Source: Nitrososphaerales archaeon TH5895 | Lineage (GTDB): Archaea > Thermoproteota > Nitrososphaeria > Nitrososphaerales > Nitrososphaeraceae | Reading direction: 5' to 3' | Assembly: GCA_014523695.1 (NCBI GenBank) | Contig: JAATVS010000531.1 | Coordinates: 1 to 13,505, forward strand | Length of the DNA: 13,505 nucleotides | Shown here: one piece after another, positions 3,221 to 13,505 of the stretch | Position numbering within the stretch: the stretch's first letter is position 1 | Layout: every line of letters begins with the position of its first letter | The notes under the pieces: model-generated | Seen by the model: only the letters and a program-made list of their open reading frames with translations | Told to the model about the DNA's origin: nothing | Database searches by the model: none | Position numbers and translations under genes: made by a program

Positions 3221-5929
3221 ATGGGGTCTGTATTTCAACAAGGATTGATTATTGGCTCTTCACTTGTACTCTTTTATGCTCTTCTTCTTGCTGTAGTATC
3301 TTCGAGCGTATTGCTTTTAGAGCTCACCCTCACTCGAATTTTCTCCATCATTCTCTGGTATGACTATGCATTTATGGCCATATCCATCGCTTTTTTTGGG
3401 CTTGGTGTAGGGTCTCTTGCTGTTCATACCGCTAAGAACCGATTGAGAAGGGAGGACATCCCTATTTATTTACTTAAATCTTCCCTGGGTTTCGCGATAT
3501 CAATTGGAGTTTTCCTTGTTGTGACAAGTTACCTAATTCCACCTAGCGTAAATTTTCTTTACCTATTTTATCTCATCTCATCATTACCTTTCCTGTTTGC
3601 AGGTATTGCAATAGCTCTAATTTTCTATTCGAGACCAAGAGATATCAGTAGACTCTATTTTCTTGATTTAATAGGATCGGCCGCGGCCACGTTGTTATTA
3701 GACCCACTGCTCAGAGGTTTCGGAGCCGAGTATACCTTAGTTTTTGTTTCCCTGCTGGTATCTGTGACATGCATGGTTGGAATATTTGTGATGAGTAGAA
3801 ATAAGGCTTACTCAACTGTATTCATTTCACGAACTTCGAAGGTGATGAGATATCTCGACAGGCTGGCAGCTTTCACTCGTGGGCATAGAGGGTATTGCAA
3901 TACCGAACAAGGTCTAGCTCAGAATAACACTAGTACGATCGGTAGGAACAGAAGACAATTAATTAGGTTACTATCGATTTCGCTTGTCCTTGTAATTATT
4001 TTCTCCCTGATCTTGGCGCTGAGTTCCTCATTTAAGGATTTATTTTCAATTAAGCCCGGAGAGAAGAAAGGATTACATTACCAGCTTTCAAATCGATCGG
4101 GTTTTGAACATCTTTTTACAGAGTGGAATTCATTTTCACGCATTGATGTGACTCGCCAAGTACATAACACTACTCAACCTCAGAGCTTAGATTCCTCTGG
4201 AAGGTCCAGGGCTCTGGCTGCCATTGCAATAGATGCTGATGCCGACACACCAGTTATACGCTGGAATGGGACCATACAGGATCTGGAATGGATCAAGCAT
4301 TATATGGATTTCTTACCTTATGAGATTGCTGCGACTAACTCAACTTTGATTATCGGAAGTGGCGGAGGCGAAGACGTCCTCGCATCTTTAGCAGGAGGAT
4401 CAAGGAATGTTACTGCCGTTGAAATAAACCCGTTAATCATAGAAGCAGCAAAAAGGTTTGGGAGTTCTGCTGGCAATTTATATGACCGGGATCAGGTAAA
4501 ATTAGTAATAGATGAAGGGAGAAGATACCTTAGTGGTACTGACTCAAGATTCGACCTTATCATGATTAAGTTAGTAGATTCCTGGGCGGCTCAACTCGCA
4601 GGTGGATATGCATTGTCTGAGAACTACTTATACACCGTAGAAGCATTCAAACAATATCTGGAGCATTTGAACAAGGATCATGGTATGTTAGTGATGATAC
4701 GGTGGAATATAGAATTGCCCCGGTTGATACCTTTGATCTATCAATCTCTGCTCGAAGACTATGGAGAATCACCCCGTGGCCCAAGAAATGCGTCAGCAGA
4801 TAGTGTATTAAGGGAAAACCAAGAGATTCTAAGTAGGGTAATTGTAGTGGAAAACAAACCCGGTCTTTACTTTCTCCCCTCTAGTGAAGGATCAATTTAT
4901 CCAATATTGGTAATGATCAAAAATAGTGCTTTCACAACAGAGGAATTGGAAATAGTCAAACAAACAGTATCGGAGAGAAATGCCAAAGCGATCTTGCTAC
5001 CTGGTGACCATATACAATCAGAATTTGAAAAAATTCTGTCGAAAAATTTGGGAACAATTGGGTCACTTGGGGAAGTAGCGAATTCAAGCATTTCTTCCCT
5101 TCCTCCTCCCACGGACGATTCACCATTCTTCTTTGCAAGAGAAAGAATCCCTTTCCAACTAATAATGTTACTCACCACAGTCCTTATCCTTTCGGGAGTG
5201 TTGTTTACTATTTTACTTTACTATTCTAAATTAAATAAGATTGATATGGTAACAGTCATGTCATCAAATAAGTATTATTTACTTTTCGCCACATGTATCG
5301 GCTTAGGTTTCATGTTCTTTGAAATCACTTTGATCCAGAAATTCTTATTAATCCTTGGTACACCGGTTCTGGCATTAACCGCCATCCTCTTCTCAATCTT
5401 GATTGCCACAGGAATAGGCTCTTATGCCAGCGGAAAATTATTTCCTGCTAGGCCCGCTAGAGCCATTCTGGTTTCCATACCACTTATCATCGTACTAGCT
5501 ACGGCGTACTATTTCCTCATAGATGATGTGATCTATCAGGGTATAGTTCTGCCCATCTATGAACGAATCATACTTACTGTCATCTTTATTGCCCCAATTG
5601 GTTTTTTAATGGGATTCCAATTTCCATCTATCATTCGGTTGGCGACAGGACATGACAGAAAATATACTGATATGAAACAGAGTCAAACTGGATCTAATAA
5701 AAAATTTGCTGATTTTAATAATGTTTCATTGGAAGAGATCAATGAAACCGACGACCACAATGTAACTTTAATTTGGGGTGTTAACATTATCGCTTCAGTT
5801 ATAGGATCTATCCTTGCAGTCATTTCGTCAATGGTGGTGGGGCTAAACAATACACTCTTGGTAGGTCTGGGATTTTACATTGGTGCATTTGGCATAATGT
5901 TGGGAAATTCACGTATACACCATAGTTAA
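3221..5929 (+). CDS. Multi-pass membrane protein with spermidine-synthase-like domain
   Basis: A 902-residue protein of the membrane-embedded spermidine synthase-like family. Residues 1-270 carry about seven hydrophobic helices (including LELTLTRIFSIILWYDYAFM and AFFGLGVGSLAVHTAKNRLR). Residues about 340-560 form a Rossmann, SAM/decarboxy-SAM-type domain: glycine loop IIGSGGGEDVL at about 377-387, acidic loop end AVEINPLI with E401, then FDLIMIKLVDSW around D453 and ALSENYLYTVEAFKQYLEHL. Residues about 645-895 add seven more helices, including the family hallmarks LGFMFFEITLIQKFL and WGVNIIASVIGSILA. The true substrate is unknown; in such proteins polyamine aminopropyl transfer is not proven, and the usual spermidine-synthase catalytic Asp region reads KLVDSW, so another nucleophile is possible. 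ATG 3221 follows an in-frame TAA three codons upstream. Family confidence high, reaction low. Confidence 0.85.
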   Translation: MGSVFQQGLIIGSSLVLFYALLLAVVSSSVLLLELTLTRIFSIILWYDYAFMAISIAFFGLGVGSLAVHTAKNRLRREDIPIYLLKSSLGFAISIGVFLVVTSYLIPPSVNFLYLFYLISSLPFLFAGIAIALIFYSRPRDISRLYFLDLIGSAAATLLLDPLLRGFGAEYTLVFVSLLVSVTCMVGIFVMSRNKAYSTVFISRTSKVMRYLDRLAAFTRGHRGYCNTEQGLAQNNTSTIGRNRRQLIRLLSISLVLVIIFSLILALSSSFKDLFSIKPGEKKGLHYQLSNRSGFEHLFTEWNSFSRIDVTRQVHNTTQPQSLDSSGRSRALAAIAIDADADTPVIRWNGTIQDLEWIKHYMDFLPYEIAATNSTLIIGSGGGEDVLASLAGGSRNVTAVEINPLIIEAAKRFGSSAGNLYDRDQVKLVIDEGRRYLSGTDSRFDLIMIKLVDSWAAQLAGGYALSENYLYTVEAFKQYLEHLNKDHGMLVMIRWNIELPRLIPLIYQSLLEDYGESPRGPRNASADSVLRENQEILSRVIVVENKPGLYFLPSSEGSIYPILVMIKNSAFTTEELEIVKQTVSERNAKAILLPGDHIQSEFEKILSKNLGTIGSLGEVANSSISSLPPPTDDSPFFFARERIPFQLIMLLTTVLILSGVLFTILLYYSKLNKIDMVTVMSSNKYYLLFATCIGLGFMFFEITLIQKFLLILGTPVLALTAILFSILIATGIGSYASGKLFPARPARAILVSIPLIIVLATAYYFLIDDVIYQGIVLPIYERIILTVIFIAPIGFLMGFQFPSIIRLATGHDRKYTDMKQSQTGSNKKFADFNNVSLEEINETDDHNVTLIWGVNIIASVIGSILAVISSMVVGLNNTLLVGLGFYIGAFGIMLGNSRIHHS

Positions 5930-8310: not shown

Positions 8311-9585
8311 TTGATTGGGTCTGATTCTAAGCTTGCTGGATGTCTTGTGTTGAAAGATGGATTAGCGATGTGCGGTATAGGTTTTGGGTACCCTTCTTAC
8401 ATGGAAGGGGAGGTGGTATTTAACACTGGTATGGTAGGATATACCGAGACCCTAACGGACCCTTCATATAGAGGCCAAATTTTGTGCCTTACATATCCAC
8501 TGATAGGAAACTATGGTGTGCCTGATTTCAATTTGAAAGATCAGTTCGGACTTCCTAGATTCTTCGAATCCATGTCCATCCAGGTCCGCGGATTAATTGT
8601 TCAAAATCTTTCAGCTAGCGCAAGCCATTGGAGCTCTATCAAGACCCTCGGCGAATGGTTATATGATCAAAAAATACCGGGGATATATGGAATTGATACA
8701 CGTGAACTAACCAAACGACTTCGAGTGCATGGCGTGATGATGGGTGCATTAAACGTAACTTCGTTAGGCAGTTCACAGAGGACTCGAAAGTCTGTGGCAG
8801 GCAGAAGGGAAATAAAGTCAACATCCCAAGTAACCAGGTTAGACTTGCCGAGGATTAAAGAGCAGCTCGAGGGTTCAAGTTATGAGGGGATAAACTTTAT
8901 GCCAGAGGTTTCGATAGAGGAAGCCAAGTTTTATAGCCCAGCTGCCACTGATAGTGGAAGCCCCACCAATAGAAGGATAGTTTTATTAGATACCGGAACA
9001 AAGTTCAGTATACTCCGTAACATCTTGTCATTGGGATTCTCAGTAATTAGGCTTCCGTGGGATACTGATTATGATTCGCTCGCGGCGTTTGGTCCCGCAG
9101 GGGTAGTTATAAGCAACGGACCGGGCGATCCGGAGATCTGTACCGCAACTATCAATACGGCCAAAAGATTAATTGAAGAATCGATTCCCACGTTGGGTAT
9201 CTGTCTTGGTAACCAGATTCTTGCTCTTGCAGCCGGTGCAAAAACCTACAAACTAAAATACGGCCATCGAGGTCAAAATAAACCTTGCATTAACAAGAAC
9301 GACAATACTACCTACATAACGAGCCAGAATCATGGCTATGGGATAGATACCATGAGCTTGCAGAAAACAGATTTTACAACCTGGTTCTATAATCCTGATG
9401 ACGACACAGTAGAAGGTATTCAACATAGGTCTAAACCAATCATTGGTGTGCAATTTCACCCTGAGGCGTCTCCTGGTCCTTATGATTGTCTGTTTGTTTT
9501 CGAAAAATTTAGAGACATTATCAAGAATTGGTATAACACGACAACTGCCCACTGTGTGAATGCCAGTGAGACTGCCATTATCTGA
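8311..9585 (+). CDS. carA: Carbamoyl-phosphate synthase small (glutaminase) subunit
   Basis: A 424-residue CarA. It hydrolyses glutamine and passes ammonia to CarB for carbamoyl phosphate, used for pyrimidines and arginine. The N-terminal CPSase small-chain domain (about 8-150) shows FNTGMVGYTETLTDPSYRGQ and PGIYGIDTRELTKRLR. The C-terminal class I glutaminase domain (about 225-410) has VVISNGPGDPE, the nucleophile in LGICLGNQ (C298) and GVQFHPEASPGP (H383, E385); spacing matches the E. coli triad. It is about 40 residues longer than E. coli CarA, largely from a basic linker around 155-180 (SSQRTRKSVAGRREIKS). TTG 8311 is the only ATG/GTG/TTG in the open frame before the first conserved strand (upstream TAG at 8251). 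carB follows after an unusually long 269-base gap. Confidence 0.95.
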   Translation: MIGSDSKLAGCLVLKDGLAMCGIGFGYPSYMEGEVVFNTGMVGYTETLTDPSYRGQILCLTYPLIGNYGVPDFNLKDQFGLPRFFESMSIQVRGLIVQNLSASASHWSSIKTLGEWLYDQKIPGIYGIDTRELTKRLRVHGVMMGALNVTSLGSSQRTRKSVAGRREIKSTSQVTRLDLPRIKEQLEGSSYEGINFMPEVSIEEAKFYSPAATDSGSPTNRRIVLLDTGTKFSILRNILSLGFSVIRLPWDTDYDSLAAFGPAGVVISNGPGDPEICTATINTAKRLIEESIPTLGICLGNQILALAAGAKTYKLKYGHRGQNKPCINKNDNTTYITSQNHGYGIDTMSLQKTDFTTWFYNPDDDTVEGIQHRSKPIIGVQFHPEASPGPYDCLFVFEKFRDIIKNWYNTTTAHCVNASETAII

Positions 9586-9778: not shown

Positions 9779-9898
9779 ATGCATCAAAATTTGGATGTAA
9801 GACTATCAATCCTTAAAGATTTGTACACTCTGCAACAGAATAATCTTCTTCGGGATGTCGTTGGATTTACGGAGGATAGGAGAATTGGGAAAACATGA
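9779..9898 (+). CDS. Possible upstream ORF overlapping the carB start
   Basis: A 39-residue ORF, ATG 9779 to TGA 9898, in a different frame from carB and overlapping its first 44 bases. The sequence (MHQNLDVRLSILKDLYTLQQ, then NNLLRDVVGFTEDRRIGKT) is hydrophilic and protein-like but unrecognised. If translated, its stop lies inside carB codons 14-15, so ribosomes could be coupled to, or diverted from, the carB start. It may equally be chance. Confidence 0.2.
   Translation: MHQNLDVRLSILKDLYTLQQNNLLRDVVGFTEDRRIGKT
9811..9820 (+). promoter_or_regulatory. Weak TATA-like element ahead of carB
   Basis: ccttaaagat, centred about 39 nt before ATG 9855, predicting a start near 9842. Other AT-rich candidates in the carA-carB gap are cggGTTAAAAga (about 9726-9736) and gatataatc (about 9762-9770). 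If one works, carB has its own promoter in addition to any read-through from carA. Confidence 0.2.
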
Positions 9899-12800
9899 AA
9901 ATATCAAGAAGGTTCTAGTTCTAGGTAGCGGGGCAATAAAGATCGGAGAGGCAGGCGAGAGTCCTTCGATAAACCGAAGACCGTCATTTTGACTACTCTG
10001 GTTCTCAATGCCTCAAAGCGTTAAGGGAAGATAATATAAATACACTACTGATTAACCCAAATATCGCGACTATTCAAACCGATAGCAGATTCGCGGACAG
10101 GGTATACCTGTTGCCTGTTAATCTAGAATATGTCACGAATATAATAGAACTCGAACGCCCAGATTCTATAATGCTAAGCTTCGGAGGCCAAACAGCGTTA
10201 AACTGTGGCGTTGCGCTGGAAAAGAATGGAATTCTTAAAAAATATGGAATTAAAGTACTGGGCACTCAAATTCAGGGTATCCAGGCTACAGAAGATAGAC
10301 AGCTTTTCAAAGAAAACATGGCTGAATGTGGGCTTCCAGTTCTTGAAAGCTCATCCGCGAACTCCATCGAAGAGTCTCAACTCATTGCCAAGAGAATAGG
10401 ATATCCCGTGATTATAAGGGTGGCTTATACATTGGGCGGACGAGGTGGTGGAGTTGCTTATAATGATTATGAATTACAGGAAATAGTTCAGCGAGGACTT
10501 GCACTCAGTGTAGTTCGACAAGTTCTAATTGAAAAATATGTAGGATCTTGGAAGCAGATTGAGTATGAAGTGATGCGGGACCACCATGGAAACGGTGTCA
10601 TAGTCTGCAATATGGAAAACGTTCTAGCTATGAAAGTTCACACAGGAGATAACATTGTTGTGGCCCCTTCACAGACACTAAACAACTACGAATATCATAT
10701 GCTTCGCAGTAGTGCACTAAAAGCCACTAAGAAATGTAATATCATTGGTGAATGCAACATACAGTTTGGACTTGACCCACGATCGGAAAATTACTGCGTT
10801 ATTGAGGTAAACGCGCGGTTATCTAGATCTTCTGCGTTGGCAAGTAAGGCCACCGGATATCCATTAGCATACATAGCTGCCAAGATAAGCTTAGGGTATT
10901 CTCTTCCCGAATTAGTTAACACTGTCACAAAAGCGACGACGGCATGCTTTGAACCTTCTTTGGACTACATTGTGCTGAAGATGCCTAGATGGGATTTCAA
11001 GAAATTTGAATTAGTAAAAAGGAGGTTAGGCAGCGCCATGAAATCAGTGGGGGAGGTAATGGCGATTGGTAGGAGTTTTGAAGAAGTTCTTCAGAAAGCA
11101 ATCAGAATGTGCGACAATGGAAAGTATGGCCTTGTTTCGAATTCTAAGCATGAATCCAATGAATCAGATGCAAATAGTTTTACTTCCGGATTCATCGCCG
11201 ATAATCAAAGATTGGGTACAAATAATTTGGCTCAGGAGAGAAAGCTACCTCTGAGATCTCTACGAAAAGGACGAATAGACTTAGATAGAACTTTGAATCC
11301 AAATTCGCCGGAAAATGAAAGCCATCCAATTTTGCCAGATTTAAGTTCACTAGGGAGCAGCCCTTTAATGGACTCATCTTCACACGTAACTGATTCTAAT
11401 AATAATAGTAGTAATGATAGTAGTAATAATAGAGATAGTAGTATAGGGAGTGATGAAATTGAAACCCTTGAACAATCTCTATTGCATCCGACTGATGAGA
11501 TCCTTTTCGATCTTGTAAGAGCATTTAAGGCGGGTATGTCGGTGGAGCGTGTCAACTCACTCTCATCAATAGATCCTTGGTTTTTGAACAAAATACAAGA
11601 CATAATCCTGACTGAGAAGAAGCTAAAAAATTCGAGTCTTGATAAAAATATATTGCTGGAAGCGAAGAAAATGGGATTTTCTGATGTTCAAATTGCCAAT
11701 TGCTCCGACATCGACGAGAATAAAGTTAGAGCTCTAAGAAAGAGATTGATGATCCAGCCTGTTACCAAACAAATCGATACTTTAGCTGCCGAATGGCCAG
11801 CAAAGACTAATTATCTTTATCTCACGTATGGCGGTCAATTTGATGATGTTCATTATATTTCACCAAGAAAAAACAGGACATTAGCCTCTGATAAAAAGTC
11901 TCGTATGCCTCGAGGTAAGGATATGCCTTCAAAAGTGATAGTGTTAGGCGCTGGGCCATACAGGATAGGTAGTAGCGTGGAATTTGATTGGGGCACAGTA
12001 AATATGGTTTTGGGTCTGAAGGAGAATGGTTGCGAGGAGGTCACAATCATTAACTGTAACCCTGAGACTGTCTCTACTGACTATGATATCTGCGATCGCT
12101 TGTATTTTGAAGAGTTAACGTTTGAAAGAGTGATGGACATTTGCGAGAGAGAAAATTCTGATGGGATAATAACTTGCGTAGGGGGTCAGACAGCAAATAT
12201 CCTCACACCAAGATTAGCTTCTGCAAATATCAACATTATAGGAACCTCTGCCGTGAGCGTGGACCAGGCCGAAGATCGATCCAAGTTCGGAAACCTGCTT
12301 GACTCATTAGGAATTAGACAGCCAGCCTGGAAAAAATTTACGAGCCTGGATGAAGCACGATCATTTGCTGAGATAGTACAATATCCTTTACTCGTTAGGC
12401 CTTCATATGTGCTCAGTGGTGCAGCAATGAAAGTCGTCTGGACCCAAGACCAGTTGAAGAAGTACTTGACTGAGGCTACTAACGTAAGCCCTGATCACCC
12501 AATCGTAATGACAAAGTTCTTGGAAGACGCTTCCGAAGTGGAAGTTGACGCAGTAGGGGATGGACAAAGCGTTGTCATTGGTTCGGTCATAGAACACATC
12601 GACAACGCGGGCGTGCATTCGGGAGACGCGATGATGTGCATTCCTCCGTGGAGATTAGATAGAGAGACGATCGAAACGATCACTGAGTATAGCAGAAGAA
12701 TTGGCGTTGCTATGAAGATAATAGGACCTTTCAATATCCAATTTTTGGTAAAGAAAGGTCAAGTGCTTGTAATAGAAGCCAATGTCCGCGCTTCTAGATC

Positions 12801-13505
12801 AATGCCATTTGTATCAAAGTTCACTGGGCTAAATCTAATTTCGCTGGCGGCTCAAGCCATGATTGGAAAAAAACTACCTGTTGACCATAGCGACATCTGG
12901 CTAAGAAAGTCGGGTTTTGGCATAAAGGTTCCGCAATTTTCTTTCATGCAACTCGAGGGTGCAGATATTGTTCTCGGAGTTGAAATGCAATCTACAGGAG
13001 AGGTTGCCTGTTTTGGGCAAAGTTTTCATGATGCACTGTCGAAAGCCTACATTGCAGCTGGATTCAACTTGCCAGTTCGTGGTAGAGTTTTGATAACTGC
13101 AGGTGGACCTAGCAACAAGGAGAGACTTCTTCCACTTGCAAGAAAGATTGGAAATATGGGATACTCCATAATGGCCACAGAACACACCGCAGATTTTATG
13201 GAAAGTTTCGGCATTTATCCAGTTGAAAGGGTATACAAAATAAGCGAACCTCTCAGAAAACCCAACATTTCAGAATTGCTATTTAAACGACAGATCGATT
13301 TCATTATCAATATTCCATCTACGTCGACACTCGAGAGGTTTGTCGGTATGCTAGATGATGAATATCAAATACGTAGGAAGGCAGTAGAGCTCGGAATACC
13401 TGTTCTGACAACTATAGAATCTGCTTCCACATTCATTGACACTTTAGAATGGATGAGGACCCACATTCCCACTTTCGAATACCTAAAGCCATATATCGAA
13501 ACGTA
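9855..13505 (+). CDS. carB: Carbamoyl-phosphate synthase large subunit, interrupted by a 28-nt intron
   Basis: The ATP-using synthetase subunit. Exon 1 (9855-9959, 35 codons) encodes MSLDLRRIGELGKHENIKKV then LVLGSGAIKIGEAGE. Exon 2 (9988 onward) begins FDYSGSQCLKALREDN and stays open to the window edge (residue 1207; the stop is outside). Without removal of 9960-9987, translation ends at TGA 9990 after 45 residues. In spliced numbering, the carboxyphosphate half has INPNIATIQTD, RVAYTLGGRGGG (R179) and EVNARLSRSSALASKATGYP (E308). A low-complexity insertion spans about 420-530. The oligomerisation region follows, then the carbamoyl-phosphate half: VLGAGPYRIGSSVEFDW (687), NCNPETVSTDYD, RPSYVLSGAAM (839), EANVRASRS (965). 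The MGS-like allosteric domain starts about 1067. The LSGAAM and NAR variants are, from memory, usual in archaeal CarB. ATG 9855 gives a normal N-terminus. Confidence 0.93.
9960..9987 (+). other. Candidate archaeal BHB pre-mRNA intron in carB (28 nt)
   Basis: An extra 28 bases separate codon GAG (Glu35) from TTT (Phe36) of the invariant GEAxEFDYSGSQ motif; 28 is not a multiple of three. The RNA folds as a bulge-helix-bulge: central 4-bp helix GGCG (9954-9957) with CGTC (9982-9985), one G-U pair; bulge AGA (9958-9960); intron helix GTC(c)TTCG (9961-9968) with CGAAGAC (9975-9981), 7 bp with one unpaired C; loop ATAAAC; bulge ATT (9986-9988). Cleavage after the second base of each 3-nt bulge, the known EndA rule, excises exactly 9960-9987. 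Exon-side pairing is weaker: GGAG (9945-9948) with CTCT (9996-9999) and C9944-G10000, with interruptions nearer the bulge. The intron is phase 0. Confidence 0.85.
11395..11442 (+). repeat. AAT/AGT trinucleotide-rich microsatellite inside carB
   Basis: An in-frame run of AAT, AGT and GAT codons encoding Asn, Ser and Asp (SNNNSSNDSSNNRDSS). It sits in the middle of the low-complexity insertion between the two halves of CarB. Being a codon-unit repeat, it can change length without breaking the frame. Confidence 0.7.

Follow-up and report, generated by a model that had tools for sequence, protein, structure and literature searches.

The DNA stretch analysed here (the window; 13,505 nt, part of contig C418 in the 3.88 Mb genome of the soil organism Nitrososphaerales archaeon TH5895) holds a carB gene that is interrupted by 28 nt at GEAGE|FDYSG, with a +1 shift of frame. 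On the plus strand, the small-subunit gene carA (8311–9585; 417.7 bits against TIGR01368, cut-off 307) lies 5′ of carB, whose first exon of 25 codons, encoding (M)GKHENIKKVLVLGSGAIKIGEAGE, spans 9885–9959, as placed by the gapless alignment of the joined protein with TIGR01369. The insert, delimited by frame, folding geometry and conservation, occupies 9960–9987, and a second exon encoding CarB minus its first 25 residues runs from 9988 to 13503, open to the window end. This second exon contains the Pfam domains CPSase_L_D1, D2, D3 and MGS, and scores 1348 bits against TIGR01369 (cut-off 1027). Across the junction, the sequence reads GAGGCAGGCGAG (exon 1), agtccttcgataaaccgaagaccgtcat (insert) and TTTGACTACTCTGG (exon 2). 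Without splicing, the carB frame ends at a TGA at 9990, giving a product of 45 residues from an ATG at 9855, in agreement with an earlier note on this DNA that had described the 28-base insertion, +1 shift and premature stop, or of 35 residues from a TTG at 9885. When the insert is omitted, the CarB N-terminus becomes GSGAIKIGEAGE-FDYSGSQ, and residues 3–199 of the joined N-terminus align gap-free with positions 2–198 of the NCBIfam TIGR01369 profile. The start codon is probably TTG 9885, with ATG 9855 as the in-frame alternative, since a GGAGG at 9871–9875 is a possible ribosome-binding site and since a relative (L007) carries an in-frame stop 5′ of the equivalent TTG. The open frame of carB is 1177–1184 codons long in this genus versus about 1080–1127 in many relatives; a Ser/Asn-rich stretch lies at about residues 385–490 of exon 2, between the first ATP-grasp and the oligomerisation domains.

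The RNA around the insert can adopt a bulge-helix-bulge (BHB) fold. A central 4-bp helix, supported by the RNAalifold consensus and by pair counts, joins the exon strand GGCG (9954–9957) to the intron strand CGUC (9982–9985) through G-C, G·U, C-G and G-C pairs. Two bulges placed by geometry flank this helix, AG|A at 9958–9960 and AU|U at 9986–9988, and an inner intron hairpin (9961–9981), supported by folds and covariation, contains 3+4 bp (9961–9963/9979–9981 and 9965–9968/9975–9978), a bulged C at 9964 and a loop at 9969–9974. The tRNA-splicing endonuclease EndA cuts after the second base of each bulge, and the cuts predicted on this rule, after 9959 and after 9987, coincide with the junction required by the protein. 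The two 3-nt bulges, the 4-bp helix, the 7-bp intron helix and the identity of the EndA and protein boundaries had all been proposed in the earlier note, and each is borne out here. In addition, the structure extends into both exons, through an outer stem that pairs UCGGAG (9943–9948) with CUCUGG (9996–10001), based on pair counts, and a distal stem that pairs GGGGCA (9930–9935) with UGCCUC (10009–10014), based on consensus pairs and silent codons; these exonic stems belong to the structure and go beyond what had been described before.

BHB geometry, defined for a chance estimate as a 4-bp central helix with an inner helix of at least 3 bp, is satisfied at 355 sites on the plus strand of the window, about 0.1% of the (start, length) cells, and the agreement of the one protein-required cell would therefore arise by chance in about 1 in 1000 cases for a single sequence. 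Folding stability alone is no evidence for the structure, because the window stretch does not exceed shuffled sequence (z −1.12 and −0.31). The central helix has an ensemble probability of 0.08 in the window RNA, where the BHB-constrained fold lies 1.2 kcal/mol above the minimum at both 37 and 25 °C in the nearest-neighbour model; in the congener L006 this probability is 0.98, and the minimum fold holds the complete central helix in 53 of 81 introns. Other classes of insert were considered and rejected. Rfam gave no match in the window at gathering scores, and ARAGORN none; a group I or II intron was rejected on the lack of a matching Rfam family, and introns of both kinds are much longer than 28 nt. 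An intein was rejected since the insert is not open in frame, and a cbf5 intron since the host gene is carB.

To judge conservation, we collected 190 loci, some from one genome, that reduce to 104 distinct junctions and 80 distinct introns. Scored at the protein-defined borders, 99 of the 104 distinct junctions (window and relatives) form all four central pairs, and the remaining five have G-A at the outermost central position. All 104 have an inner stem of at least three pairs and two 3-nt bulges that begin with A, the 5′ bulge being AAA, AGA or AAT and the 3′ bulge AAT, AGT or ATT. Over 81 distinct introns (pair alignment A2, from which six loci of the Woesearchaeota class were left out), two-sided changes occur at inner pairs 2–5 in 23, 15, 36 and 34 cells, the covariation score is reached by none of 500 shuffles, and standard pairs fill 95.6% of cells, falling to 26.9–45.1% when the partner strand is slid, although such counts overstate significance because the sequences are related. 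RNAalifold, unaided, recovered the same central and inner helices together with the exonic stems. A double change in the central helix of G008 is compensatory across the splice border, the exon codon GGC becoming GGT, which is silent, and the opposite intron base changing from G to A. Judged by these comparisons, a foldable, strict BHB comprising exonic stems, exon–intron helix and intron hairpin is under selection across many lineages, and the carB insert is very probably an archaeal pre-mRNA intron of the EndA class.

The exonic strands of this structure leave a mark on codon choice. We compared 139 distinct intron-bearing genes of the class with 35 distinct intronless ones, two sets that are not matched for kinship. 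GGC at −2 is used by 138/139 versus 4/35, GGA at −5 by 137/139 versus 14/35 and TAC at +3 by 134/139 versus 14/35, and the distal-stem silent codons GGG, GCA, TGC and CTC are likewise enriched in intron-bearing genes. Farther away, at 34 conserved codons between +21 and +95, the two sets are equally variable (entropy 1.61 for intron-bearing and 1.54 for intronless genes). The outer stem is complete, with six of six pairs, in 111 of 113 distinct intron-bearing flank pairs and in 15 of 43 distinct intronless ones, non-class loci being counted as well. Since both silent choice and stem pairing differ in this way, selection on the exonic stem seems to be gained and lost together with the intron.

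We then determined how far the intron extends. A DNA search gave matches in 5/5 genomes of the genus and 226/300 of the order, and in the 30 best-scoring loci of these searches the insert always sits at the same codon boundary, with lengths of 20, 21, 22, 25, 26, 27 or 28 nt; over all sequences read, intron lengths are 18–34 nt. The earlier note had placed the intron in one Nitrososphaeria-like organism, where it is indeed present, but its range takes in much of the class as well as certain Woesearchaeota. From 26 of the 30 loci we built a covariance model (R1), which matched 286 of 400 sampled class genomes, split by E-value into 204 strong and 82 weak, with 114 unmatched. In 81 of the 82 weak genomes, the match is exactly 42 nt, comprising both exon ends with nothing between them, so that relatives of the window show the insert in many genomes and an exact empty site in 81 of the 400. 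The other weak genome, G242, has a 55-nt match and no strong CarB hit, and was counted neither as intron-bearing nor as empty. Strong matches measured 63–74 nt in 14 examined cases, 62–82 nt in 28 more and 61 nt in one further case at a contig end. The longest, of 82 nt (G078:C6:71772–71853), implies an intron near 40 nt, as inferred from match length.

The window's own family has 57 strong and no weak matches, yet one R1-unmatched genome (G093) has an empty site. Family f9 has 130 strong matches and 60 empty sites, and its genus g44 has 23 and 45. Among 300 genomes of the phylum, every strong match falls within the order; the class sample adds a single strong match from beyond it (G320). At L239, L241 and L242, three loci of matched non-class genomes, the sequence runs uninterrupted as GEA[AG]EFDYSG; a 59-nt match in G631, also outside the class, was rejected as spurious, as none of the CarB motifs searched there was found. 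Of 234 loci, 9 were left uncalled by our motif script, and 8 of these proved intron-bearing on reading. The ninth, L230 (G009), looks intronless because its match crosses the junction with precisely 3 nt for each residue, and it was left out of every count. A gapped-pattern search of genome contigs returned at least 120 stretches, and those listed include Ca. Nitrosotalea devanaterra (chromosome LN890280.1), Ca. Nitrosopumilus salaria BD31 and Nitrososphaera sp. AFS as well as Nitrosocosmicus, Nitrosarchaeum and Cenarchaeum records. Assembly error is rejected by the presence of the intron in all five genus genomes and in named isolate genomes, in line with the earlier view that sequencing error would hardly explain the insert.

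Two loci that are 93% identical, L053 (G381) and L199 (G424), differ by the exact presence or absence of the intron, pointing to a recent exact loss, perhaps by way of a copy of the spliced RNA. A quick CarB tree (SH-aLRT only, root unsure, outgroup row L257 among the Nitrososphaeria, and 7 of 83 wanted loci, namely L117, L105, L206, L270, L254, L259 and L263, without a usable row) requires 12 changes of intron state, compatible with one gain and many losses or with several gains. The intron would be old in the class and would have been lost exactly, more than once. With many natural plus/minus pairs, some within one genus, and with isolates such as Nitrosotalea devanaterra among the carriers, the gain, loss and function of the intron can be tested. 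Three genomes (G148, G265, G404) have two strong R1 matches each, on different contigs, a possible sign of strain mixture or of a duplicate carB.

Three intron-pattern stretches are titled Candidatus Woesearchaeota (L151, L172, L176). In the class of the L172 genome (G677), R1 matched 5 of 234 genomes, with an intron in G677, G867 and G910 and 42-nt matches in G886, which reads as an empty site, and G895, for which the script gave no call; altogether, five genomes of the Woesearchaeota class were found with an intron at the same site. In the weakly rooted CarB tree, the six rows of this class group together on a branch apart from the Nitrososphaeria. Their intron may stem from transfer, from ancient presence or from an independent gain. 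One locus of the class, L252, which is outside the 104-junction set, has TAT as its 3′ bulge. L151 and L176, both with Woesearchaeota titles, and L252, from a genome of the same class, also contain a further frame-breaking insert with a hairpin, which lies some 23 nt 5′ of the main intron, after GSGA and before KIGEAGE, and leaves a micro-exon that encodes about KIGEAGE. A scan of L151 found a BHB with 3/4 central pairs and 6 inner pairs at a protein-consistent border, while the best hits in L176 (4/4 or 3/4 central pairs) exclude that border, and the upstream insert in L176 and L252 was matched by eye only. A second, upstream BHB-like intron in carB is thus suggested on evidence weaker than that for the main intron.

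The genome encodes the enzymes that such an intron would call for. It has two EndA genes (PF01974), of which the alpha subunit (L001) matches the solved EndA 3p1z, presumably that of Aeropyrum pernix, with an E-value of 8e-42 and keeps in the alignment the Tyr, His and Lys that we take to be the catalytic residues, while the second, EndA-like subunit (L002) lacks the His. The exon ligase RtcB is also encoded. A review assigns the alpha2beta2 type of EndA to Thaumarchaeota (PMC4090602), and the two subunits found here, on sequence, fit that type. Nitrosotalea devanaterra and Nitrosopumilus salaria likewise show two EndA genes each, and three Woesearchaeota genomes show one each. We propose that the two-subunit EndA would cut both bulges after the second base, that RtcB would join the carB exons and that the 28-nt intron would come free, possibly in circular form; translation of the joined mRNA would then yield uninterrupted CarB, and the unspliced mRNA could give only a short, truncated peptide.

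A short, hairpin-bearing insert that often contains in-frame stops could also be passed by translational bypass or programmed frameshifting, the ribosome hopping the hairpin while the RNA stays uncut, and cbf5 introns were indeed mistaken for frameshifting by others, according to Yokobori 2009 (PMC2738675). Hopping does not, however, account for an exon–intron helix of 4 bp flanked by two exact 3-nt bulges, nor for a geometry that stays constant from 18 to 34 nt, nor for the compensation between silent exon sites and the intron, and we hold it to be very unlikely. Still less probable, and barely credible in our view, is that carB has decayed or is translated only from an internal start 3′ of the insert. 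Such a reading would draw on the stop of the unspliced frame at 9990 and on an internal TTG that opens a long ORF from 10111, but exon 1 is conserved as protein in the loci read, the motif GSGxIxIGEAxEFDYSG, to which exon 1 contributes, is contiguous in intronless relatives, and the intron model has strong matches in 204 of the 400 class genomes, in keeping with the earlier dismissal of decay. Nor does the genome, rated 92% complete, appear to hold a second carB; apart from the second half of CarB itself, its only other CarB matches are two weak, partial ones at 24–31% identity, though a copy may lie in the missing part of the genome.

Conserved exonic stems, which reach about 30 nt into the exon on either side, could further suggest that selection maintains the insert as an RNA hairpin for some other function, such as an RNase site or translational control, its excision being incidental. 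However, full CarB is impossible without excision, and the constraint on the stems is relaxed in intronless relatives, which leaves this explanation with a minimal likelihood. An EndA-class pre-mRNA intron is the reading we retain.

Every one of the 80 distinct introns in the first set disrupts the frame, either by shift or by stop. Among 91 introns, an in-frame stop is present in 38/38 whose length is a multiple of three (3n) and in 30/53 of other lengths (one-sided Fisher p 3e-7, a value that treats introns as independent of kinship), and a structure-preserving null for the first 32 3n introns expects 11.8 with a stop. The stops in 3n introns are TAA, TAG and TGA at several positions. A single stop passed down by descent therefore does not account for them, although kinship is common among these introns. 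A joint reading, in which splicing gates carB expression, selection keeps the unspliced mRNA untranslatable and archaeal genes with more than one intron exist (in Woesearchaeota), is tentative, and we would put it at somewhat below an even chance. If true, the intron-stop bias would be an archaeal counterpart of the bias in eukaryotes. In ciliates, short 3n spliceosomal introns retain stops; the carB introns resemble them in having an in-frame stop bias where frame is kept, and differ in their splicing machinery. Nonsense-mediated decay is not known to occur in archaea.

A cbf5 pre-mRNA intron of Crenarchaeota was reportedly described by Watanabe in 2002. According to a 2020 paper, the single additional BHB intron on record for archaea lay in cbf5 mRNA (PMC7714728), and Yokobori 2009 mentions predicted introns in other genes by way of a rudivirus paper and a Sulfolobus chapter (PMC2738675). 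The crenarchaeal cbf5 intron resembles that of carB in being a BHB intron of a protein gene with an old gain and repeated loss (PMC2738675); the carB intron differs in gene and lineages, and occurs also in Woesearchaeota. A table fragment in that source appears to give zero cbf5 introns in Cenarchaeum symbiosum and Nitrosopumilus maritimus (PMC2738675). Archaeal tRNA introns at the canonical site 37/38 share the 4-nt helix between two 3-nt bulges (PMC6379350), whereas the carB intron lies in mRNA coding sequence, its stem bases double as codons and its 3n forms retain stops. BHB processing in the 5′ UTR of Haloferax HVO_1309 also involves an EndA substrate in mRNA, in that case at a site in an untranslated leader rather than a coding-sequence intron (PMC7714728). 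Our searches, which covered CC-licensed PMC papers, showed no report of a carB intron, which agrees with the earlier note's belief that it was undescribed. Within the literature searched, novelty lies in the host gene, the lineages, the span and the stop bias; the intron class has been described before. Set against the one gene named in the 2020 paper, carB, central to the synthesis of pyrimidines and arginine in ammonia-oxidising archaea, would be a second protein gene with such an intron. This suggests that the machinery of tRNA splicing also acts on mRNA in two archaeal groups far apart from each other and that protein-gene splicing in archaea is less rare than thought. In such genomes, automated gene prediction would probably cut carB short or split it.

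Elsewhere in the window, positions 3221–5929 encode a 902-residue protein that is hydrophobic by eye and has a weak spermine-synthase-like domain. The minus strand carries a transcription factor B gene at 523–1437 and, at 2–301, the start of a gene with a CDC48-N domain.
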